Source: Tethya wilhelma (taxonomy: Eukaryota > Porifera > Demospongiae > Tethyida > Tethyidae). Taken from it: 64,000 bases of DNA. Numbering within the stretch: the first letter of the stretch is position 1; the number at the start of each line of letters is the position of its first letter. Shown here one piece after another: positions 44,201-63,386 of the stretch. The stretch is taken from assembly GCA_964030475.1 (NCBI GenBank), contig CAXIPT010000008.1, forward strand, positions 1,014,420 to 1,078,419, in the 5' to 3' direction. The notes under the pieces are model-generated. The model was not told the DNA's origin. It did no database searches and worked only from the letters and a program-made list of their open reading frames with translations. A program made the translations under genes and the position numbers.

Positions 44201-44902
44201 ATGTACACCTCTCAAGAAGAAAAATGTACCCGCCCCACACACTGAAAATACCAAAGCTCCCTTTTTGGAAATTGAAGTGGAACTTCCACAGCCCTCCTTT
44301 CTGTGAGTAAAAGGTCAAAGGGGAATCTGCAGCTGGGGACAAGGCCTAATGCATGCAGCGCTCTTCAAAAACATACCAAATCATTACATAGGCCTCCATA
44401 AAAATGTATCCCTCACAAAACATATCCTTTCACTTATAAAAGTTACACCTCACAAAATATTTATAGATATCCTCCAAAAAATTGCACTCCAGACCTAGCC
44501 ATTTAATTTCAAAAGTACTACTTAATGGAAACAGTTGGAGAGAATCACTATACCTATAAACAGTAATGAATGATTCTCCTTGTATATAGTATTAGTGGAA
44601 TGCCAATACTGAAGATCATCACATTGAACAGAAGCTTATAAATTGATATAAGACTATAGTATACACATTACAGAACTATAGATTTGGAATTTATTAGATT
44701 TATAGAGCAGACTTACTCTCAGAGTGTGTAGGACCAGGGTTTCTCTCTACATCTCCACTTAGTAACAGAAGCATTGTTAACACTAGAGTTGATAGCTGTA
44801 TGATGGAGGAGACCACTACAGCTACACTCCTGATACCATTACTAGTGGGCTTTCCTTTCTCTGCTCCTTTGTCTGCCATATTATGCACACATTGCAAAGT
44901 AC
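33718..44902 (-). CDS. Gene G: 2A-exon, Death domain, ankyrin protein without MYND (5' exons missing)
   Basis: Exons high to low: 44902-44717 (hydrophobic segment plus 2A motif), 41673-41383 (Death domain: MDKCFEIGIHLGIGKNNLRTIE...VLQYWLQG), 39990-39224 (uncharacterised middle domain ending SAGDYQYPPPSQ), 36036-33718 (about 19 ankyrin repeats). Joined length is 3563 nt from a phase-1 acceptor with no internal stop, about 1187 codons. Unlike H, I and J it ends after the ankyrins with a polar tail (stop at 33718) and has no pre-MYND or MYND region. The Death/middle exon that is single in H and J is split here by an intron carrying repeat R and a CA tract. No membrane exons are found upstream; sequence breaks at an n (46296). 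An in-frame Met at 44879 (MADKGAEKG) could start a shorter form. Likely a signalling adaptor; function unproven. Confidence 0.8.
36037..39223. other. Large intron of gene G with nested foldback elements
   Basis: The 3.2-kb intron separates the ankyrin exon from the middle-domain exon. It holds an outer inverted pair around 37640 and 38200 (gtgtaggaatgggcagtgca and its complement), the MITE 37786-37972 nested in it, and a sequence at about 38830 (agtaggaatgggtcgactgt) that recurs at 48897 in the equivalent intron of gene H. I see no exon in it. Confidence 0.65.
37786..37972. mobile_element. MITE with TACCGTATAGC-type inverted termini, copy 1
   Basis: The 17-bp ends taccgtatagcacaaaa are perfect inverted repeats around 150 bp of AT-rich sequence containing further palindromes of 'ggcggatt'. 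Related termini occur at 51465-51847 and, in degraded form, at 48963-49188. Confidence 0.85.
40050..40341 (+). repeat. Dispersed repeat family R, copy 2
   Basis: It shares gggttacggtagtcgttttg and the gcgttattta end with copy 1. It lies in the gene G intron that splits the Death domain exon from the middle-domain exon. Confidence 0.8.
41164..41294. repeat. Long (CA)n microsatellite containing an n
   Basis: More than 100 bp of CA with an n at 41204, in the gene G intron just downstream of the Death domain exon. Confidence 0.95.
42966..43027. repeat. Small foldback, cctcgtacccaggcc family
   Basis: Arms cctcgtacccaggccactcc and its complement flank a short loop. It directly abuts the larger foldback that follows. 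Confidence 0.85.
43027..43670. mobile_element. 644-bp foldback element with ~88-bp inverted termini
   Basis: The left end (tagcctcgttcccaggctcc, running to about 43115) and the right end (about 43582 to 43670) are inverted copies with small differences. The interior has no ORF of note. Its arm sequence matches the short hairpin at 16435-16509, so solo and long forms coexist. It lies in the 3-kb gene G intron between the 2A exon and the Death exon. Confidence 0.85.
44730..44753 (-). other. 2A-type ribosome-skipping motif in gene G
   Basis: Encodes DVERNPGP preceded by LVLTMLLLLSG, matching the canonical D-V/I-E-X-N-P-G-P consensus in every fixed position. The skip would fall between Gly (44733-44735) and Pro (44730-44732). 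It is in frame with the downstream Death domain exon through a phase-1 junction. Confidence 0.85.
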
Positions 44903-46296
44903 CTGCAATGTTTGTATGTATTATATCCCATATTTCCATAATATATAGTCTTAGCACAAAAACAACTGCAGTTTAACATACAGTGTAGATATTTTCTCTC
45001 TCTCAGGACTACAAGGGAAAGTATGAGCCATATTTCTCCTCCCCTGGGCTATTACTCGTAGTACAAGACCAATAAAAATATATATAGCTCAGTATACTAA
45101 CAACAGGAAAGAATGAAAGCACCAATGGTGCATAAGCCTCGGCACACTCAACTAGCATGCACAACTAAATATGCATACATACTGAGAAAAGACCATCAGT
45201 ACTGAGACTTCAGTATGCAACAAAGTTCACTGCCCGGCTGAGTCACAGCACTGAGCCTGAGCCTAGCACGGTTTAAAATCAAGCTGCTGCAATCAAGGAT
45301 GTGCTGAGCTAGTTATAATAACCTCTGTTAAGAAACTCACTGGATCAGACAGTGGTACCGCACTGAAGGCCATGCAGTCAGGCACTGATACAAAACACAC
45401 AACTAACCTATTTCAACACAACTATTATCAGAGTCTCACTATATTCAACTTGCAATCATTGAGTTACTTACCTGTCCAAGCAGCCAAGCCAGCCAAGCTC
45501 AAGTCCATCTATGAGGCCATGATCCAAGTTTTACAGTATTTCTAGATAACGCACACTATACAGGGTGTGATCAATGGGTGTGGTTTCGAAGCCTAAGCGT
45601 CCAGAGAAGCAAACCCTCAGATCTCAGAAACTACAGCGTTTTGCAAGATTCTACACGTCAAATTTCAAGATAATATCGATTCATGAATGTAAGTACCTTC
45701 CATTTTGACTCTGGAGCTGCTGTTCTTCAGATAATTTAGTAACAGACAGACACACAAACACACAAAACGACTACCGTAATCCTCTGCACGTGCTACGCAC
45801 GCGCCGAGGCTTAATAATGTTACTATCTAATTTGCATATTGTTTCCAAAAGGATGAAGCAACATCAAGTTTAGAATCTGTCTGAAATAAGCAGCTTTAAT
45901 TTAGTTTAAATTTCGGGATATGCTGAATTTTGTTTGTGTAGTTTGAGCACGTTTTCTGAACAAAGGAGAATGTGGGACAAAAACTCTGACCACTGTAGAA
46001 ACCAGGTGAAGCAGCAGAAGAGAAACTCAAAATGTTTTTGCTTCTGGATGCTCTTTCTAAAAGATTGTAACAACTGAAAACTGAGTAAAGCAGTTACTAT
46101 TAAAGTGATTTTGAAGCATGTCAAAAAATTAGAAACAGGATATATAACAGTCAATGATGTGCCCTCGGGCATCGGACGCCGTTTACTACGATAATTCCCT
46201 ACTAGGTGCATTCTAGAACTTAGTGTCTCATTTCTGTAGAGAGTGTTTGTTCTCGGTTTAAGGTTCAAACTTTAGTGTAGAAACTGCAAGTTTATN
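44903..46296. other. Region upstream of gene G ending in a contig join
   Basis: The membrane exons expected upstream of the 2A exon are not present. The region contains repeat R copy 3 and an AT-rich stretch without a recognisable gene, and stops at the n at 46296. Confidence 0.6.
45536..45813 (-). repeat. Dispersed repeat family R, copy 3 (inverted)
   Basis: Reverse complement of the family: starts tctagataacgcacac and ends cgtgctacgcacgcgccgag. It retains the ctcagatctcagaaactaca segment matching copy 1. Confidence 0.8.
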
Positions 46297-49900: not shown

Positions 49901-52464
49901 GAAATACTTTCGTTTTTGATGACATCACTTGCAACTGCTCTATTACAAAAATGGCAGAAGTCAGAAGTCGAAAAAGGGTCGATCGTCTGTGACGTCATGT
50001 AACAAGGTAAATTGCTGAGCTGACCAAATTGCAAAGAGGAGCAGTGCATGCAAGCCTTTCAGTGCTTTTACTGCCCAGTTATTACTATGCAGATGCCTGC
50101 ATTTGCATGCATTTGCATGCATTTAGCAGTAAACATCAGTATACTTCATACACAAGCAAGGAGCGTTGCAAGCGAAGCAAGCCACACTCCTTGTAATAAT
50201 AATTATAATAATAATTAACATTACACGATATTTGCCATTAATCTTACATCAGAATGTTCCGATAATTCAGAGAGTATTGTAGAAAGAGTGTCAATCCCTG
50301 AGTCACCTTGTCCTCCACCTGGGCCAGACCCATCATCTGGTTTATCCCCATGGTCATCACTATCACCCTCCTCTTGGGAAGGTGGTGGGTATTGATAGTC
50401 ACCAGCCGATATCTTGATCACTCCAAGAGCTGCTAGAGCTCTCTCTTGATCACTTGAAAGAGGAAACACACCCTGGAAGACAAACAGTGGAGATTGCAGG
50501 GTAAGTTCCAAACACCCTCGTCTGATGGACTCAAGTGATAGTGTTCCTTCTGACAATTTCAGAACCTCAGAGAGCTTGTTGATAAATCGTTTCAAATGAC
50601 TCAGTGTACAGTGTTCAAAAGTATCATCGACTTTCACAATAAAATTCTGTTGTGTTTGTACATCTACTGGCTGTTGAAATGTAGTTGGGCACTCATATAC
50701 CATACACTTAGCAAAGAGTCTATATTGTTCCTCATATTCTGATAGCATCTTTTTATCATTGTCAGTTCCAAGCTTATTAATTATCCGTTCCACTAGGTGA
50801 TAGTTGAAAAACGAACTGTAGGTACCAACAATAAACATGACATCATCAATGGACTTAGCATTCCTCAACTCTCTCATTCGATGTTCAAGAATTGACCTAG
50901 AATCAATAGTTCTATACACAGGCTCGAAAGCTTGAAAAGCTCTGATCTTTGCTACAATCTTACTAATGGGAATTTCTCTCTTTTCTAATGAAGCACTGAT
51001 GCCATCAATAAGGTCTTGAAACTTCTCAGACAGTTTATCCACGTCAGCACTCAGTTTTTGGCAACGTTGCTTCTGAGTATCATCAAGAGAACTTGTGTCA
51101 AAGTTAGGGAAGAAAATCTTATTACTTTGTGCTGTATTAGCCACTATTCCTGCAGAATCTTTTTTGTTAGGACAATTATACTTTTCTACGAGACCACTAG
51201 CCAGATCATTTCTGTCAACTTGTATCAGAGCATCAATAATAGATTCCCAACTGCAAACATCAGTGCTTGATTGCAACCAATGTAGCAGTACCTCATACAA
51301 TCGTCTTTCAGTAGAGTGAGGGTGATCCAATTCAATGGTACGAAGACTGGCTGGCTCAATACCCAGCTGAACTCCAATTTCATGGTACTTATCCATCGCT
51401 GGCTTTAGTTCAGTCACCAAGGTCTTAATATCGAATACTACAACAATAGAATGTATTCTCAGTATACCGTATAGCTCCAAATTTTTGTGGTACAATATTT
51501 TCATGAATTTCGTGATTTGACCGTATATCATGAAAATTTTCTCCACGAAAATTTAGAAAACCGTTGTAGTAGCTGTACTATTAGAAATGTTCACTAGACT
51601 TGACAGTTAAATAATTTATCTTTCAAAATGCACGCTGCTCAAAAGTTAGGCAAATCCTTTTTCCTATAGTTACAACTCAAAGTTACTTACTAATATGAAT
51701 GTCCAACTAATTAATACAGTCTCTACAACTGTATATATCGGCAATACAATTTCAGAGATCGTGATTCACGAAAATTAGCTCAAAACGGCAGACAGACTTT
51801 TCACGAACTTTTTGAACCACGAAAATTTGTCATGGAGCTATACGGTAGTACTGGGTAAACACGAATGGCACGGATGCATGACGATTAGTGCAATACAAAT
51901 ATTCACTCAAATAATTCTACAAAAACTGCATGAGCGCTTGGTACTACAAGTCTTCTAAAGTTACTATTTAGCTCGTTCTCTTTCTAACAAGCCTAAAAAC
52001 ATACAGCCTAAAACCATAGCTAAAGTAAAATATGCCAAATCTCCAATTTTCTCCATCTTCTGAGGCTTCTTCTTCTTCTTAGTCTTCTATGTTGGCAAGA
52101 CTTTTCTCAGAGACCGCTTGCTTTTAGAAGCTGATTCATGAATGAATAAACATAGTATCTTTGTCTTTAGTTGCTTTTGGCATCAGTTTTTCATGTCTCT
52201 TGTCCACTTACTAGATATAAGACAAAAAGCGCTTTCTCTGTATGGCTGCCATTAATTTCTAAACTCATCCATTGGGCTACTTGGGAATTCAACTTGACAA
52301 CCCTTTCCCAGATACTAGACAAGTATGCAGCGTTATTTGGAATCCACAGCTTACCTGGCCAGTGCTGAACTCTTTGCTAAGACTGCTTTTCTTTGATAAT
52401 TATGATCTTGCTACTATTGAATAAGCAAGTTACCAATGAAGGCACTAGATTTTATTAATATGCC

Positions 52465-52503
<39 letters not shown>

Positions 52504-54057
52504 TCAAATAATGTGATTCATTGAATTATGAAACTAAGTAACAAAATAAAAATGTAATGAGACACAGGAATGGCCAAATGGTAAAAAAAAAAAAAAAAAA
52601 AGTCAACAAGTGGAATGGCTGCTATAGAGTGTGTAGAGAATTCTTCCTGTGGGCAAACTGAAGAACTCAATATAGTAAAAGTGTATTACATGAAGTCCAT
52701 AGAAGGATTCTGCACACACTCTATAACAGCCATTCAACTTGTTTGCTTTCTTTTTTCCAACGTTACATTTTCAATGTTTTTTTTATTACTTGTAAGCCTT
52801 TACGTAGAGTGACCACAAACAAACTTTGAGCTTACTCTGTGTAGGACCAGGGTTTCTCTCTACATCTCCACTCAGTAACAGGAGCATTGTCAAAACTATA
52901 GTAGACAGCTGTATGATGGATGAAACCAAGGCAACACCACGACTAACAATCCTTCTTATTCTTTTGTCTGCCATACTCGTTTGTACACATTGCAAAGGGC
53001 CTGTAATGTAACATCAAAATTAATATGAATAATTGGAACTGTGTCAGTATAAGCATGCACTGTTTTGTTACTATGGATGAATTCACAACCAGAAACCTTA
53101 CAATTCATTACATGAGCTATTTAGGCTGAAATAACAGCTGACTAGTCACGTACCCAGGCCACACCCAGTTTTTGCTGTGTTGCACGCAGAAAATTGTGAT
53201 TTTACCTCCCAGGCCCTCCCAATTTTCTGCGTGCAACACAGCAAAAACTGGGAGTGGCCTGGGTACGAGGCTAACAGCTGACCACATATAGATACTACTA
53301 TGCAAGTAACAGCAAAATGCAGACACAAATATGGTACCCAGAAAAAAACAAAAAATATCACAAAATTTAATGTTAATTTTAATAACAAAACATCGCATAC
53401 GTACTAACATAGTTCCGTTAAGGCTCTGGTTTAGTTTCTACTCACTTTGTTGCTCCATCGTGAAGGTAGTATAGACACAGCTACTGTACACCTTTGGGAC
53501 TATCTTCAAGCCACAAGCTACACCACCCTCTGCATCAAACCATAGGAACTTCTGACAATGTAATGGCAGGAGAAACATGAACTGACGTTTGTTTCGTTCA
53601 GTGTACTCGTGAACACCCATGAAGAATACTGCCATCATGACAACTAAAAAGGAGGCAATGAAGATTACAACTGTGACAATCAGTAGACCACTCCAATGAT
53701 GATAGCGGAATTGAGGACCCATGAAACCTGCAGATTTATTTAGCAAGCGGAGCTAACCCATAGCAGTCAAGTTGTACAAAAAAATCGTGTCAAATTATGG
53801 TCCAAAGACTCACCATATGAGTCTTCAATGTCCAATCTATGATTCTCTCCTCTAACTAAACCCACCAAGACAGCAACTCCAAGTTCATAGACCTTGTAGA
53901 GTAGAGGTAGCCAGACTAGAGTGAGGGCCAGGATGTATCCTCTCCAGTCACTAGGACTCCGGGAGGAGGGGGGAGGCTTCATGGAGAGTGGCCTCAACCC
54001 TCTACTGGCATTTATCATTCCAGTCTTGGCTCTCCACTGCTCAGCACTGATTGGCAT
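46695..54057 (-). CDS. Gene H: complete membrane-2A-Death-ankyrin-MYND gene, 5 exons, 1325 aa
   Basis: Exons: 54057-53814 (start MPISAEQWRAKTG; membrane segment GYILALTLVWLPLLYKVYEL), 53727-53446 (membrane segment LLIVTVVIFIASFLVVMMAV), 53000-52836 (hydrophobic segment and DVERNPGP), 51437-50248 (Death domain about residues 233-318, then the uncharacterised middle domain to SAGDYQYPPPSQ and an acidic/Gly linker), 48791-46695 (about 13 ankyrin repeats, pre-MYND domain, MYND finger about 1268-1313). Total 3978 nt, junction phases 1,1,1,0. If the 2A works, products are 227 aa (membrane) and 1098 aa (soluble, starting at Pro). Ankyrin and MYND share one exon, while F and I have an intron there. 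The last ~285 bases equal those of gene F. Death and ankyrin modules suggest innate-immune or cell-death signalling, which is inference. Confidence 0.88.
48963..49188. mobile_element. Degraded MITE, TACCGTA family
   Basis: Starts taccgtaaacgtggaaatat and ends with the imperfect complement atttccacgttttaatatgg, with internal inverted 'cgccaaattt' motifs. It lies in the gene H intron between the ankyrin and Death/middle exons. Confidence 0.7.
51465..51847. mobile_element. MITE with TACCGTATAGC-type inverted termini, copy 2
   Basis: Perfect 15-bp ends (taccgtatagctcca and complement) bound 383 bp that include the palindromic phrase atgaaaattttc. It lies in the gene H intron just upstream of the Death domain exon. 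Confidence 0.85.
52471..52600. repeat. (CA)n and poly(A) tracts in gene H intron
   Basis: A CA tract (52471-52499) and a run of A (52580-52600) lie in the 1.4-kb intron between the Death exon and the 2A exon. Just after them a short inverted duplication (ggctgctatagagtgtgtag near 52616 and its complement near 52715) is visible. Confidence 0.8.
52843..52866 (-). other. 2A-type ribosome-skipping motif in gene H
   Basis: Encodes DVERNPGP after IVLTMLLLLSG. The Gly-Pro skip point is residue 227/228 of the spliced protein. The exon is 165 nt with phase 1 at both ends. Confidence 0.88.
53149..53267. mobile_element. Foldback with ~47-bp arms and 11-bp target duplication
   Basis: Arms 53149-53195 and 53221-53267 are near-perfect inverted repeats (cgtacccaggcc at the tip). 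They are flanked by direct repeats taacagctgac at 53132-53142 and 53272-53282. It lies in the gene H intron between the second membrane exon and the 2A exon. Confidence 0.85.
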
Positions 54058-54392: not shown

Positions 54393-56923
54393 TTACATTT
54401 CAGTCAGCTTCATAAAGTGAGGCATCACCTTACACCATTTACGATGGCATTTCTTCCAGTCTGTTGCCTGGCAATCTTTTGAACAATAATGAGCAACTTT
54501 ACAAGTAGTACACTTCTTCAAAATCAATGAAGCATTCCCAGTCTTGCCACAGGACCAACATTTAGTGTCTTTGTTCTTGTAGTAGAGTGCTGAAAGGTCA
54601 AACAAGTCTTTCATGCTGCATGGAATGATGAGCACAGACTGAGTAGACGGGAGTTCAATATAAAGGCCAATGGTTCCATCAGGAAAGTAGTGTTGTGTGG
54701 CTTGTTGTACGATAAGTGTGTGACCTTTCTTCAACGATGTAAAATCAAAATTTTTGTTAGTTGTGTCAGGACAGAAGAGTATAGGGATACTATCCTTTCC
54801 TGATCGATCACGGACAAATGTTTGATTTCCAGAAATCCTTGATTTGTCGCTGCTAGTGATTTCCGTCATGAATATCCAATTAACGCCACCTCTTTGTTTG
54901 TAGTATTCCTCAAACTCTCTCTCTTCTGGGAGTTGCCTAAATGTTGGAAAGTATCGAACACTTTGAAGTGGGTGATCACCTTCTTTCAAGTTGGATGAGA
55001 TTGGTTTAGGAGGGTGATTATCTCTGCAGGTAGAAATAGAGAGTAATGTGTATTTGCTACATGATAATATCATCATCTTATAAGTGTATATCAGCTCAAT
55101 TTAAGGCGATTGCTGACATATCATGAACATTGTATGTACTGTACAGATATAACTTGTACACTCTCCTTTACGTTAAAATAAAAGCAAAAAAACATGACAT
55201 TGTACCCAACTTGCCTTTGATATATTGTTTCCAATTTGAATGTGATGGTAGATTCTATATCAGACACTTTTTTAAGGTACTCTGTTACATATTTATGGTG
55301 CTCAGACTCTGCTAGTTGAAGAGGTGTTTCACCACAATTATTTCTAATATTTGGATTGGAATTTAAATCAGAAATCAAGAATTTCACTGTTTCAAAATAG
55401 CCTAAGCTAGCAGCAAAATGTAGCGGGGTCATTCCATCACTGTTTTGAATATTTTGATCAAAGCCAACCTCCTTGATAAACAACTCTAAAAACTTTATCT
55501 GCCTTGCAATAGCAGCAAGATGAACAGGTGTAACATTCATAGAATTTACAGCTACCATTTGACTTTTAGCCTTGTATTTTAAGAGAACTTTGGCCATGTC
55601 AAGATGCCCAGACTTGATAGCAACATGAAGAGGAGTATCTTGGTACATTCCCGGTATGCAAGGATCACAATTTAACTCAGCAATATAGAAATCCACAATC
55701 TCACTTTGTTGCTTCTGAACTGCTGCATGAAGAGGAGTGTTTCCTTGGACTGTTGGGTAAGGATCACAGCCTTTTTCCAATATAAGGTACTTGACAGAAT
55801 CCAATTTTCCACTGATAGCTGCAAGATGAAGAGGCGTAGATCCGGAATTGTTTGTTTGCGATGGGTTTAATTCGTGAACATCAATCAAATATTTCATGAT
55901 TTCCAGATGACCATTTTGAGCTGCTACGTGCAATAAGGTTGCTCCATGTTGACATCGAATATTTTTTGGATTACACTTCAACTCAGAAACATAGAATTTT
56001 AGAACTTCTATGTGTCCATTGAAAACAGCCAGGTGAAGAGGAGTGTCACCATCAACACTTGCACACATGTGAGAGCACTTCTTTGTTACGATAAAAAATT
56101 TTACACAATCCAAATGGCCACACTCTGCAGCATAATGAAGAGGGGTTCTGTTGAAATCATCGAGTATAGTAGGATCACAATGTTTCTCATCAGTCAAATA
56201 CTTTATTATTTGAAGATTTCCTCCTTGAGCAGCTGCATGAAGAAGTGAAGCCTTGTGTTCACCACGTGTGTCTAGATTACAATGTAAAGTGTCAAGGAAG
56301 TATTTAACTATTTTGATTGGACCAATAATTGCTGAAAACTGTAGGGGAGTGTTTCCATTGGAATCTACATGCACAGGGTTACAATTTTTATCTTCAACCA
56401 GGTACTTGACAGTTTCTAAACTTTTACTGCCAGCTGCTAGGGTTAAGGGTGTACGTCTCTTTTCATCCAAATGAGAGGGATTGCATTTCATGGTATCAAT
56501 CNTGTTAAACAGGAGGAGCACTATACCACTCCAATGGTGACAGTGGACTTGAGGATCCATGAAACCTGAAGCAATTTAATTTAACGGTGATCTAATTTGA
56601 ATGTATGAAGTGATCAGTTTGACCTAGACCGACTAATTAAATTTTGACAATGACTCACCATATGATGAATCTCCAATGTCCAACACATGGCTCTCTCCTC
56701 TGACTAAACCCACCAAGACAGCAGCTCCAAGCTCATAGATCTTGTAGAGTAGAGGTAGCCAGAGTAGAGTGAGGGCTAGGATGTATCCTCTCCAGTCACT
56801 AGGAGGAGGAGGGGGGAGACCACCAAGGAGGAGGGGAGGAGGCTTCATGGAGAGTTGCCTCAACCCTCTACAGGCATTTATCATGCCAGTCTTCACTCGC
56901 CACTGCTCAGCACTGATTGGCAT
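54393..56923 (-). CDS. Gene I: membrane exons joined across an n to ankyrin-MYND exons
   Basis: Exon 1 56923-56659 (MPISAEQWRVKTG..., membrane segment), then the start of exon 2 56565-56503 (GFMDPQVHCHHWSGIV) until an n at 56502. Immediately beyond it is an ankyrin exon, 56501-55215, with about 12 repeats, then the pre-MYND/MYND exon 55023-54393 (CWSCG...CTTC...YCSKDC...HRKWC, stop TAA). The rest of exon 2, the 2A exon and the Death/middle exon are missing, so the n hides a real gap of several kb or a false join. The intron 55214-55024 uses a GC donor: exon end CAAAG followed by GCAAGT, phase 2, joins in frame to GATAATCACCC. No GT donor gives this frame. Confidence 0.7.
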
Positions 56924-59223: not shown

Positions 59224-62200
59224 CTAGAGTTGTGTCAGCTTCCTAAAGTGAGGCATCACCTTGCACCATTTACGGTGGCGTTTCTTCCAGTCAGTTGCCT
59301 GGCATTCCTTTGAACAATATCGAGCAACTTTGCATCCACCACACCACTTCAAAGTCTCTGCAGTATCCCTACTCTTGCCACAGGACCAACATTTAGTGTC
59401 TTTGTTCTTGTAGTAGACTGCTGAAAGGTCAAACAAGTCTTTCATGGAGCAAGGAATGACCAGTAGAGTGGACAGGATTTCAATACGAAGGCCAATAGTT
59501 CCATTATAAAAGTGATGTTGTGTAGCTTGTTGTACAATAAGTGTGTGTCCTCTCTTCAATGTTGTAAAGTCAAAGTTTCTATCAGTGGGATCGTGATGAA
59601 AATAGATGGGGATATTGTCCTTTCCTGATCGATCACAGACAATAGTTTCATTTCGATAGTCAAATCCATATTTTTGCGAATTATCACTGTTGGTGATTTC
59701 TGCCATGAAGAGCCAATTGACACCATCCCTTTGTTGGTAGTATTTCTCAAAGTCTCTCTCCTCTGGGAGTTTCCTAAATGTTAGAAAGTATTGAATATTT
59801 TGAAGTGGGTCATCACCTTCCTTCAACATGGAGTGGAGATGGATCTTCCTGTAACCCAGTAGGAGAACATTCTTTATTTTTTAGTAGGACTTTGGCCGTG
59901 TCTAGATGTCCATATTGAGCTGCAATGAGAAGAGGAGTTAAGGAGCCTCCAAAGCCTACAATATTTGGATCACATTTTAACTCATTAATGAAGAACTCAA
60001 CTACTTCATTTTGCTGAGCACGTACAGCATAATGAAGGGGTGTGCTTTGCTTGCTGTCTCTGTAGTTAGGATCACAATGATTGTCCACAGTGAGAAGTTT
60101 AACAGCATCTAGATGGCCCTCTCTTGCAGCATAGTGGAGGGGAATCAGTCCGTTGTAATTTGGTAAACATGCACACTTGCAATCATACATAAGAAACTTA
60201 ATGATCTTCAAGTGACCTTTGAGAGCAGCTATATGTAGAGGAGTTGCTCCCTCTTGGCCTGGGAGATTAGGGTTGCAGTTCACTTCAACTATAAGATACT
60301 TCACAATGTCAAAATGGCCATTGGCAATTGATAGGTGAAGGGCAGTGTTTCCTTTTGCTGTTTTTTCATTAGCAATCTCTTTGATGGAAATATAGGTGCT
60401 CATTTCTTTACTCAGTAAATGAACTATATCAATGTTTCCTCCAATGCAGGCCGAATGAAATGGACTAACGTGCCATTCTTCATCTTCATACATAGGGTCA
60501 ACCTTTTGATCTACTACTAAATATTTCACCATTTCAAAATCTCGGTATCTACAAGCAATGTGCAGTGGTGTCTCTCCAAATGCACCAAAGACTAAGGAAC
60601 TGCATTCCTTTTCTTCAATGAAATATTTTGCAACAGCTAGCTGACTGTTAAGAGCAGCATAATGAAGGGGTGTGTTTCCCATTTTGTCTCTTTGTGAAAC
60701 TTTAAATACTCCAGAATTTACAATTGTCTTCACATACTCAAGCTGTCCATTATAAGCTGCAATATGAAGTGGTGTGAGATCGTGATGGCTAGGTGTTTGT
60801 GTAGTCATTGCTCCTTTATTGTCATAATCAATATCATAAGGATCAGAAGAGTTTACACGTGCAACTTCCTGCAAGATTTCAAAAAGGAATATGAATATTC
60901 ATAACAGTTATACCACTGAAATGTTACAGGACTTACTTCTGATTGTTCTGATAACTCAGAGAGTATAGTAGAAAGAGTGTCAATCCCTGAGTCTCCTCGC
61001 CCTCCTGGGCCAGACCCATCATCTGGTTTATCGCCATGGTCATCACTATCACCATCCTCATCTTGGGAAGGTGGTGGGTACTGATAATCACCAGCTGATA
61101 TTTTGACCACTCCAAGAGCTGCTAGAGCTCTCTCTTGATCACTTGAAAGAGGAAATATACGTTGAAAGACAAATAGTGGAGATTGCAGGGTAAGTTCCAA
61201 ACACCCTCGTCTGATGGACTCAAGTAATAGTGTTCCTTCTGACAATTTCAGAACCTCAGAGAGCTTGTTTATAAATCGCTCTAAATTACTCAGGGTACAC
61301 TTTTCAAAAGTATGATCAACTTTCACCATAAACTGTCGTTGTGTGTTTGTATCTGCTGGTCCTTGAAATGTAGTTGGACACTCATACACCATGCGCTCAG
61401 CAAAGAGTCTATATTGTTCTTCATATTCTGATAGCATCTTGCGATCTTCGTCAGTTCCTAGTTTGTTTATTATACGCCCCACTAGGTGATAGTTGAAAAA
61501 TGAACTGTAGGTACCGACAATAAACATAACATCATCAATTGACTTGGCATTCATTAACTCTGTCATTCGCTCTGCAAGAATTGACGTAGAGTCACTCTCA
61601 GCGTACACTGGCTCATACGCTTTAAAGGTTAGAATTTTTAAAGCGATTTTTTTAGCTGGAATTTTTCTCTCCTCCAAGGATTCACTGATACTATCAAAAA
61701 GGTCTTGGAATTTCTCAGATATTTTTTCCATGTCAGCACTCAGTTTCTGGCAGCGTTGCTTCTGATCATCATCAAGAGAACTAGTGTCTAGAGTAGGGAA
61801 GGAAATCTTGCCGTGTCCATATGCTGGAATAGCCATTGCTTCAGTAATTTTGCTAGGACAATATTTTATAGCAAGTTCTCTAGCCAGAATTATTCTGTCC
61901 ACTTTTATCAGAGCATCAATGACAGATTCCCAATGAACTTTAACATCAGTATTTCCTCGTAACCAATGTAGCAGTACCTCAGTCAGTCGCCTTTCAGCAT
62001 CGCAATCATTTGGATGATTCTGTTCAATAATTTCCATCTTTGCTGGATTTATGCCAAACCGAATTCCAATCTTATAGTATTCTGACGTTACAGATTTCAA
62101 TTCTGTGACCAATGTCATAATATCACCTTCACCTATATGTATAATAGCGTAATGTAGCTTACAACTGAATGGGATACTACGAGTGTAGCAACACTATCAC

Positions 62201-63386
62201 CAATGTGGACATTTAACAAAACATGTCATTGAAATAGTAGAGTCTTACTCAGTATAGGACCAGGGTTTCTCTCTACATCTCCACTCAGTAACAGAAGCAT
62301 TGCCAAAGCTATAGTAGACAGTTGTACAACAAATGAGACCATTGTAGTGTTTCTGCTATCAACCCTTCTTGTTCCTTCGACTGACAGCCTCGGTACTCGT
62401 ACACATTGCAAGGTGCCTGCAATGTCAAATCATGTCAAAAAATTGAGTCATATATGCATTGCACTTAATCCCCCTAGCTGGTTTAGTTTAGACTCACTTT
62501 GTTGCTCTATTGTGAAGGTAGCATAAACACAGCTACTAAACACCTTTGGGACTTCTCTCAAGCCACCAGCTACTCCATCCTCCACATCAAACCACAGGAA
62601 TTTCTGATAACATAATGGCTGAAGGAATATGAACTGATGTTTGTTTTGTTCTGTGCACTCATGATTACCCGTCAAGAATATTGCCATCACCACAACTAAA
62701 TAGGAGGCAGTGTTGATCAGGACAAGTACTAGACCACTCCAAGAGTGACAGTGGAGTTGAGGATCCATGAAACCTGGTGAATATAGAGGAACTTAGTACT
62801 ACAAAAATATTATAATGCAAACCAACTATTAAAGCTTTTGCAGGTCCTATCCAGGATTCTTGAAAAGGGCATACATTTTTGATCAGTCAGAGGTGTCCAT
62901 AAAAAAGCAGAAAATCTAGAGAGGTCTGCCGGGGGCATGCTCCCCCAAAAAATTTTAAAAATTTAGGGTAATAGGTGCATTTTAGTGCATTCTAGAACAC
63001 CTTTTATCATCTACTTAAAACGTTTTATGATTATGCCAGTCTTAGTTTTTCTTTTTGCTTCAAAAAGAGGGTGCACTTGCCCCCTCCCTCCCTACGGGCC
63101 TGCTTTGACCATGGTTCTCACCATAATGTGAATCTTCAATGTCCAACACATGGCTCTCTCCTCGGACTAAACCCATCAAGACAGCAACTCCAAGCTCATA
63201 GACCTTGTAGAGTAGAGGTAGCCAGAGTAGAGTGAGGGCCAGGATGTATCCTCTCCAGTCACTAGGAGGAGGAGGAGGGAGACCACCAAGGAGGAGGGGA
63301 GGAGGCTTCATAGAGAGTTGCCTCAACCCTCTACTGGCATTGATCATACCAGTCTTCACTCGCCATTGCTCAGCACTGATTGGCAT
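59224..63386 (-). CDS. Gene J: membrane-2A-Death-ankyrin-MYND gene with a frame break before the MYND part
   Basis: Exons: 63386-63122 (MPISAEQWRVKTG, proline-rich stretch, membrane segment), 62773-62498 (membrane segment LVLVLINTASYLVVVMAIFL), 62416-62249 (hydrophobic segment plus DVERNPGP), 62132-60937 (Death domain IGIRFGINPAKMEIIEQ...LLHWLRG, then the middle domain to SAGDYQYPPPSQ), 60868 onward (about nine ankyrin repeats, then pre-MYND/MYND to 59224). The first four exons give 635 codons in frame. The ankyrin frame stops at 59813 (about 986 aa), while the pre-MYND/MYND frame (MLKEGDDPLQ... CWSCG...CGGC...YCSKEC...HRKWC) is shifted and starts near 59830. The two look joined by a deletion that removed later ankyrin repeats. 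The MYND half may be untranslated unless there is a sequencing error or recoding. Confidence 0.8.
62256..62279 (-). other. 2A-type ribosome-skipping motif in gene J
   Basis: Encodes DVERNPGP after IALAMLLLLSG. The skip would release a 233-aa upstream product. The exon is 168 nt, phase 1-1. Unlike G and H, this exon lacks the internal MADK start. Confidence 0.87.

Follow-up and report, generated by a model that had tools for sequence, protein, structure and literature searches.

A candidate StopGo/2A recoding motif between a membrane module and a Death-ankyrin-MYND protein in a multigene family of the sponge Tethya wilhelma

Gene H and its 2A core

The window analyzed here is a 64,000-nucleotide stretch of the genome of the sponge Tethya wilhelma (contig CAXIPT010000008.1). 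On its minus strand lies gene H, a five-exon gene model in which an exact StopGo/2A core, D(V/I)ExNPGP, stands between exons with hydrophobic segments and exons for Death, ankyrin and MYND domains (Table 1). In StopGo recoding, the nascent chain blocks formation of the peptide bond at NPG/P; after release of the upstream chain, the ribosome continues translation (PMC12846837). Translation of positions 53001-52842 (minus strand) ends in LTMLLLLSGDVERNPGP, which places the eight core codons exactly at 52866-52843. All fixed residues are present, as an earlier note on this DNA had claimed. The model was rebuilt from the DNA as 1325 amino acids plus a stop codon, in agreement with the 1326 open codons of that note. 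All introns are GT..AG, with phases 1, 1, 1 and 0. Residue 227 is the last of NPG, with 1098 more before the stop codon, the same division as previously given.

Hydropathy analysis identified strong segments at residues 97-115 (3.04) and 200-218 (2.27), the second of which lies just ahead of the 2A. The segment at 50-68 (1.75) is weaker. Pfam searches gave matches to Death (3.6e-6), Ank (5.3e-88) and zf-MYND (3.8e-8). No family was found in the first 228 residues at E 0.1, and no NACHT domain in exons 4-5. With these three families and no RVT family in the Pfam results, an assignment of gene H to the retrotransposon 2As was rejected. A homolog search with the first 627 residues, in which the best 8000 candidates were scored, returned one match (P0002), to the middle region after the Death domain.

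In addition to the core, gene H has a leucine-rich hexapeptide ending in (A/S/C)G and an aspartate at p12. LLLLSG-like leucine-rich motifs with D at p12 form one of the four major upstream classes of viral StopGo (PMC12846837). The splice model, with agreeing candidate phases in paralogs, sets the 2A in frame between two coding regions. Intron 2 holds a long inverted repeat (53150-53266) with arms of roughly 50 bases, as judged by eye, which resembles a small transposon.

Table 1. Coordinates and domain content of gene H, its copies in the window and 2A loci elsewhere in the genome
Feature	Position or locus	Strand	Basis or remarks
2A core DVERNPGP	52843..52866	-	genome-wide codon pattern match and translation
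Hexapeptide LLLLSG upstream of gene H core	52884-52867	-	class as in PMC12846837
Gene H exon 1: ATG start, basic N-terminus, first (weaker) hydrophobic segment	53814..54057	-	phase 1 donor ATG/gtgagt; paralogs
Gene H exon 2: strongest hydrophobic segment LIVTVVIFIASFLVVMMAV (Kyte-Doolittle 3.04), conserved tail motif	53446..53727	-	gene model
Gene H exon 3: hydrophobic stretch, then 2A	52836..53000	-	translation, model, candidate splice sites
Gene H exon 4: Death domain, conserved middle region without Pfam family	50248..51437	-	model, Pfam
Gene H exon 5: ankyrin repeats, zf-MYND, stop codon	46695..48791	-	model, Pfam
Second copy, exons 1-3	62249..63386	-	exon 1 63386-63122, exon 2 62773-62498, exon 3 62416-62249, core 62279-62256
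Second copy, downstream: Death exon from about 62132, then ankyrin-like and MYND-like frames	59224..62132	-	ankyrin and MYND by eye
Third copy: 2A exon	44730..44903	-	core 44753-44730; Death exon about 3 kb downstream (41671)
NACHT, with Death match below Pfam cut-off	L014, L018, L029	same as 2A	downstream of 2A
Leucine-rich repeats (LRR) with NACHT	L018, L029	same as 2A	downstream of 2A
Ankyrin arrays	L020, L021, L022, L027, L028	same as 2A	downstream of 2A; gene H Death/middle region also matches at these loci
Ankyrin-Death-COR	L023	same as 2A	downstream of 2A
TPR and CHAT	L015	same as 2A	downstream of 2A
AIG1/MMR-type GTPase with fn3	L025	same as 2A	downstream of 2A
fn3, with Roc match below cut-off	L024	same as 2A	downstream of 2A
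RIG-I C-terminal domain	L009	same as 2A	3.8 kb downstream of exact 2A
RVT_1 and phage-integrase SAM-like domains	L011		about 5-7 kb downstream of 2A

2A cores in the window and the genome

Three exact 2A cores lie in the window (44753-44730, 52866-52843 and 62279-62256), all on the minus strand. The earlier note had taken the 2A gene as single; it belongs instead to a large genome-wide set. Across 124.6 Mb in 204 contigs, 77 exact D(V/I)ExNPGP sites were found, 65 with the DVExNPGP and 12 with the DIExNPGP codon pattern. Neither pattern gave any site genome-wide when reversed, and these controls rule out chance matches. Allowing one DNA mismatch added only 16 sites (control 3), unlike a decaying repeat, for which the opposite would be expected. 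An oddity of a single gene was ruled out by searches with the 2A exon, the Death exon and exon 2.

A protein query of 32 residues from the 2A exon gave 73 matches. The core is exact in 62 of them, among these every one of the 37 with E < 1e-5, and has one DNA mismatch in the other 11; the query includes the core, so this search favors intact copies to some degree. As 11 of the 16 one-mismatch sites in the genome align to this query, such sites may be rare functional variants of the core. Four of the 16 lie within 20 kb of each other (G000:C1:21408949-21428415).

The window also contains an orphan exon 1 with a partial exon 2 (56923-56657, minus strand), which leads into an ankyrin frame beside an unknown base near 56502. 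It has the appearance of a broken copy or of a join made in assembly.

A Death-exon family tied to the 2A

The Death part of exon 4 was used alone as a query, blind to the 2A; of 429 initial candidates 150 were scored, and the 148 matches listed were compared with the 77 sites. An exact 2A was present within 6 kb upstream on the same strand for 32 of the 148 as a whole. These include all of the top 19 matches and 22 of the top 23; the top 50 contain 29 of them and the other 98 contain 3. Two matches on contig C15 have one 2A in common. As controls, a same-strand 2A lay downstream of 3 of the 148 and an opposite-strand 2A upstream of none. The near-complete association among the top matches and its rarity in the rest indicate that one Death-exon family is tied to the 2A, whereas distant Death domains mostly are not. 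At the examined loci, a candidate acceptor in frame and in phase 1 lies close to the beginning of the Death region in 19 of 24 Death matches; in 14 of these 19 its alignment position (+1 or -2) is shared.

The putative upstream membrane module

Of the 26 matches to exon 1 (MPISAEQW...) in the genome, 21 are followed by an exact 2A within 6 kb, among them the window orphan, which reaches only the 2A of the next gene. For exon 2, an exact 2A follows within 4 kb in 17 of 21 matches. A homolog of exon 2 is present at all nine examined loci that have exon 1. Copies of exon 1 and/or exon 2 at G000:C77:27878-30978, C2:2227193-2229105, C3:2209795 and C2:728823 have no exact 2A nearby and could represent a version of the membrane protein that lacks the 2A. 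In public contigs the exon-1/2 module has three matches (P0003-P0005).

Nine loci with exons 1-3, two in the window and seven elsewhere in the genome, were examined for splice candidates. At all nine, a candidate phase-1 acceptor of the 2A exon precedes the core by 116-161 bases, and a phase-1 donor follows at +31. A GTRAG donor lies within 13 bases of the core end at 29 of 46 examined sites, always in phase 1; 15 sites have no GTRAG in reach, and two retrotransposon-like ones have it about 60 bases on. Use of the candidate joints would make exons 2 and 3 symmetric 1-1 modules, which could be shuffled with the frame kept.

Ratios of nonsynonymous to synonymous substitution rates (dN/dS) were calculated by NG86 with no significance test, and are reported for pairs with dS below 1.5. 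Between gene H and the second window copy they are 0.20 for exon 1, 0.39 for exon 2 and 0.48 for exon 3. The corresponding ranges for other pairs are 0.23 to 0.52, 0.30 to 0.91 and 0.27 to 1.2. The claim of the earlier note that membrane exons, 2A and the Death-ankyrin-MYND part share one frame is backed by the paralogs, the agreeing candidate intron phases and the upstream dN/dS below 1.

Conservation of the 2A exon

Conservation was assessed in 27 family 2A exons, chosen from the 46 examined sites by a QL(S/F)(S/T)(L/I) motif. Within MLLLLxGDVExNPGP, three of 15 residues vary. Position p9 is L in 25 exons, Q in one and V in one; p10 is A in 24 and S in three; and the x of ExN is R in 25, S in one and K in one. 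A viral survey likewise permits A, S or C at p10 and any residue at x (PMC12846837). The core is fixed partly by construction, as loci were chosen by exact core, while MLLLLxG was not a criterion. Silent variation was observed at 8 of the 12 fixed codons, ATG being incapable of it. Between the window copies and seven other loci, exon-3 dS is 0.68 to 1.31 with the core unchanged except for x in L022, so recent copying is no explanation there.

That the motif is a decayed or mobile-element relic, functionless in these genes, is very improbable. The 2As at L012, L017 and L030 are indeed retrotransposon-like, with a Cys-rich tail, and RVT_1 lies about 1.7 kb downstream of the 2A at L012 and L017 (six of 150 RVT_1 matches, chosen by eye as near, were compared). 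The 2A exon has also, in at least one pair, likely been copied recently. Against a relic stand the excess of exact over one-mismatch sites, the residues that stay fixed despite silent change, and the tight link to one Death-exon family and a conserved upstream protein.

An intronless array with the same layout

Four tandem intronless genes at G000:C13:183060-201300 (L044-L047) carry a membrane part, a 2A and a downstream part in one frame. Their open frames are 883-1010 codons long, and the upstream part of about 245 residues has four hydrophobic segments (computed for L045). As no splicing is needed, the order membrane part, 2A, downstream part is a real layout in this genome. Searched without the core, the upstream part gave four genome matches, all four with a 2A. 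No homologs of this N-terminal module were found at 1e-3 in a set of 5.8 billion proteins, and Pfam gave no family above cut-off in about the first 500 codons of each gene.

Across all six pairs, dN/dS upstream of the 2A is 0.36-0.56 (dS 0.25-0.38); downstream, dN is 0.34-1.14 and dS 0.53-1.99. For four of the six pairs, amino-acid identity was followed in bins of 20 residues. For L044/L046 it falls from 0.60-0.95 before the 2A to 0.10-0.35 at the 2A, while L044/L045 is at about 0.5 there and at 0.1-0.3 some 60 residues on. For L045/L047 identity is 0.4 already in the 80 residues before the 2A, 0.7 at the 2A and 0.1-0.2 beyond, and L046/L047 keeps 0.65-0.8 over about 60 residues before it drops. 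Divergence therefore increases either at the 2A itself or close by, depending on the pair.

Proteins encoded downstream of the 2A

Of the 22 10-kb loci without retrotransposon character, 16 supplied the 38 downstream frames of 150 residues or more on which Pfam was run; no frame of this length occurs at L010, L013, L016, L019, L026 and L031. Frames were assigned to the 2A of each locus by position and strand. The domains found are listed in Table 1, and the downstream frames of L032 and L033 matched no Pfam family. The reverse transcriptase and integrase frames at L011 resemble those of a DIRS-like element. AIG1 GTPases have 85 matches in the genome. Exon 1 or 2 of the membrane module precedes the 2A at L015, L020, L022-L025 and L027-L029, among others.

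A broader picture can be drawn from these loci, on which the evidence is evenly balanced. It would be that of a genome-wide, exon-shuffled recoding cassette, in which a constant membrane protein with a 2A at its end stands before many different proteins of innate-immunity type, namely Death-ankyrin-MYND, NOD-like receptor (NLR), TPR-CHAT, ROCO and GTPase-fn3 proteins, and that of a second, unrelated intronless array which evolved the membrane-2A-downstream layout independently.

Two proteins from one message: the probable reading

The motif of gene H is probably a selected StopGo/2A element, by which a spliced mRNA would yield a membrane protein and a cytosolic Death-ankyrin-MYND protein. The observed sequence, frame, candidate splice phases, paralogy and selection pattern form the basis from which splicing, skipping, topology and an immune role are predicted. 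One spliced mRNA would first be translated into a membrane protein of about 227 residues, with hydrophobic segments in exons 1 and 2 and a hydrophobic tail ending in the 2A. At NPG/P the ribosome would let the chain go without a stop codon and then resume translation. The second product, about 1098 residues long, would be cytosolic, with proline first and with Death, ankyrin and MYND domains. The three upstream exons would serve as a reusable phase-1 cassette before different immune-type proteins, and a constant membrane protein would be co-made with a variable sensor or adaptor. Failed skipping, or inhibition during insertion into the endoplasmic reticulum (ER), would give a membrane-tethered fusion; the 2A may also set the partition.

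Four viral motifs, one of them leucine-rich, were 93 to about 100% efficient when assayed in reticulocyte lysate (PMC12846837), and by analogy the 2A of gene H is expected to be highly efficient. Skipping might instead be deliberately incomplete, with a fixed or regulated mix of membrane-anchored fusion and free Death protein and with ER insertion lowering the efficiency. This is conceivable but rather doubtful, and it departs from the two-protein reading in degree only. The hydrophobic segment at 200-218 stops about 9 residues short of the NPG end, and dual targeting was found for an N-terminal 2A (Roulston 2016, PMC4981915), as a mixed output would have it. The canonical core and the leucine-rich class, with its one efficient representative in lysate, argue for a more complete reaction.

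Several observations weigh against the two-protein reading. Upstream of the third window copy, no exon 1 or 2 was detected. No exact 2A lies near 4 of the 21 exon-2 and 5 of the 26 exon-1 matches. With the splice filter applied to exon 3, candidates were found for the exon-1 phase-1 donor at seven of the nine loci, for the exon-2 acceptor at five and for the exon-2 donor at six, the filter also missing the exon-2 acceptor used in the gene H model. At L024 the exon-2 acceptor candidate precedes the exon-1 donor and is hence incompatible with it. Five of the 24 Death matches (L051, L043, L038, L032 and L024) have no in-frame phase-1 acceptor. Upstream proteins inserted into the ER can inhibit 2A (PMC2978324). 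An exact 2A stands by 6 of 102 NACHT matches (102 of 176 candidates scored; about 0.3 expected by chance), which does not support NLRs as the main 2A class of the genome. Nor are RIG-I-like receptors supported as a general 2A class, with an exact 2A by one of 11 matches to the RIG-I C-terminal domain (L009) and none by the other ten, which lie in a cluster on contig C5.

Part of the conservation may likewise have another origin. Exon-3 dN/dS exceeds 0.7 in some close pairs and reaches 1.2 in one, and the GGA, GAT and GAG codons in or near the core show no silent change. Between L023 and L027 the 2A exon (-68 to +35) has 98% DNA identity, compared with about 75% for exons 1 and 2; dS is 0.105 for the 2A exon versus 1.28 and 1.00 for exons 1 and 2. 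The apparent conservation is thus increased by gene conversion or by copying of the exon. The pattern in this pair suggests gene conversion at the exon level, a recent exon copy or silent-site constraint, and the conservation of the 2A exon may be due in part to recent copying or gene conversion instead of selection.

The 2A could also serve as an N-terminal signal peptide, as in sea urchin NLRs, with the start inside or just before exon 3 and with exons 1-2 from another isoform. Skipping would then determine whether the Death protein is cytosolic or else is secreted or placed in the membrane. Such an arrangement has a published precedent (PMC4981915), and the third window copy fits it, as its start may lie within or near the 2A exon. 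Exon 3 of gene H contains an internal Met, and at six examined sites (L013, L014, L016, L034, L035 and L048) an open frame of 42-81 residues with an upstream Met surrounds the core, in some cases before Death-like or NACHT frames. Nevertheless, this alternative is unlikely for gene H, given exon 2 ahead of an exact 2A in 17 of its 21 matches, the phase-1 candidate acceptor of exon 3 at all nine loci and the dN/dS below 1 for exons 1-2 in all reported pairs. The internal Mets of exon 3 are, by eye, at no conserved position.

Comparison with known systems

Among the 2A-like signal sequences of sea urchin NLRs (SpNLR2A), both recoding and signal-sequence function were seen for the one assayed; NLRs with a 2A number 85 of 241 in the introduction and 14 of 87 NCBI entries in the results of that paper (PMC4981915). 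Gene H and SpNLR2A have in common a cellular D(V/I)ExNPGP that lies in the N-terminal part of an immune-type protein with a DEATH domain and follows a hydrophobic stretch, and both belong to invertebrate multigene families in genomes with retrotransposon 2As (PMC4981915). The stretch in SpNLR2A was identified by signal-sequence predictions (PMC4981915), that in gene H by hydropathy alone. SpNLR2A is N-terminal, about 26 residues long and found on NACHT-LRR proteins (PMC4981915), whereas the 2A of gene H is internal and follows a conserved three-exon membrane module. Few NACHT matches have a 2A here, unlike in the sea urchin. An alternative start in exon 3 of gene H is conceivable though unlikely, and the Tethya wilhelma genome also has short 2As similar to the sea urchin N-terminal type.

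With viral leucine-rich StopGo (motifs 2/6; Li et al. 2026, PMC12846837) gene H shares the core, the aspartate at p12 and the leucine-rich hexapeptide ending in (A/S/C)G, but its motif lies in an intron-containing genomic multigene family and not in a viral polyprotein. L012, L017 and L030 resemble the 2As of APE-type non-LTR (long terminal repeat) retrotransposons, whereas gene H has Death, ankyrin and MYND domains and no reverse transcriptase. Such retrotransposon 2As were reportedly found in genomes of multicellular organisms by Odon et al. in 2013. Eukaryotic 2As are said to have been surveyed by Rao et al. in 2025, and relatives of the present genes may already be listed there.

StopGo is described as frequent among RNA viruses and rare among cellular genes (PMC12846837), and NLRs are the only cellular examples named in a 2024 paper (PMC11512398). 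Among the matches listed from the open-licence literature, no title or abstract opening described a cellular 2A in sponges or with these domains. The earlier note held that the architecture had no description. As to kind this is too strong, since sea urchin NLRs have a 2A directly before DEATH (PMC4981915). The internal position, the membrane module and the non-NLR partners do look new, although first description is not claimed.

With 77 exact sites in one genome, many of which belong to a single exon family whose upstream protein is conserved, cellular recoding would become directly testable, as would the role of the upstream membrane protein, the regulation of skipping and the benefit to immune-type genes of two proteins per message. 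If the cassette interpretation is true, each message would resemble a two-gene operon that yields, in fixed ratio, a membrane protein and its cytosolic partner, a sensor or adaptor. StopGo would then be a regular gene-pairing device in animals and not a rare oddity.
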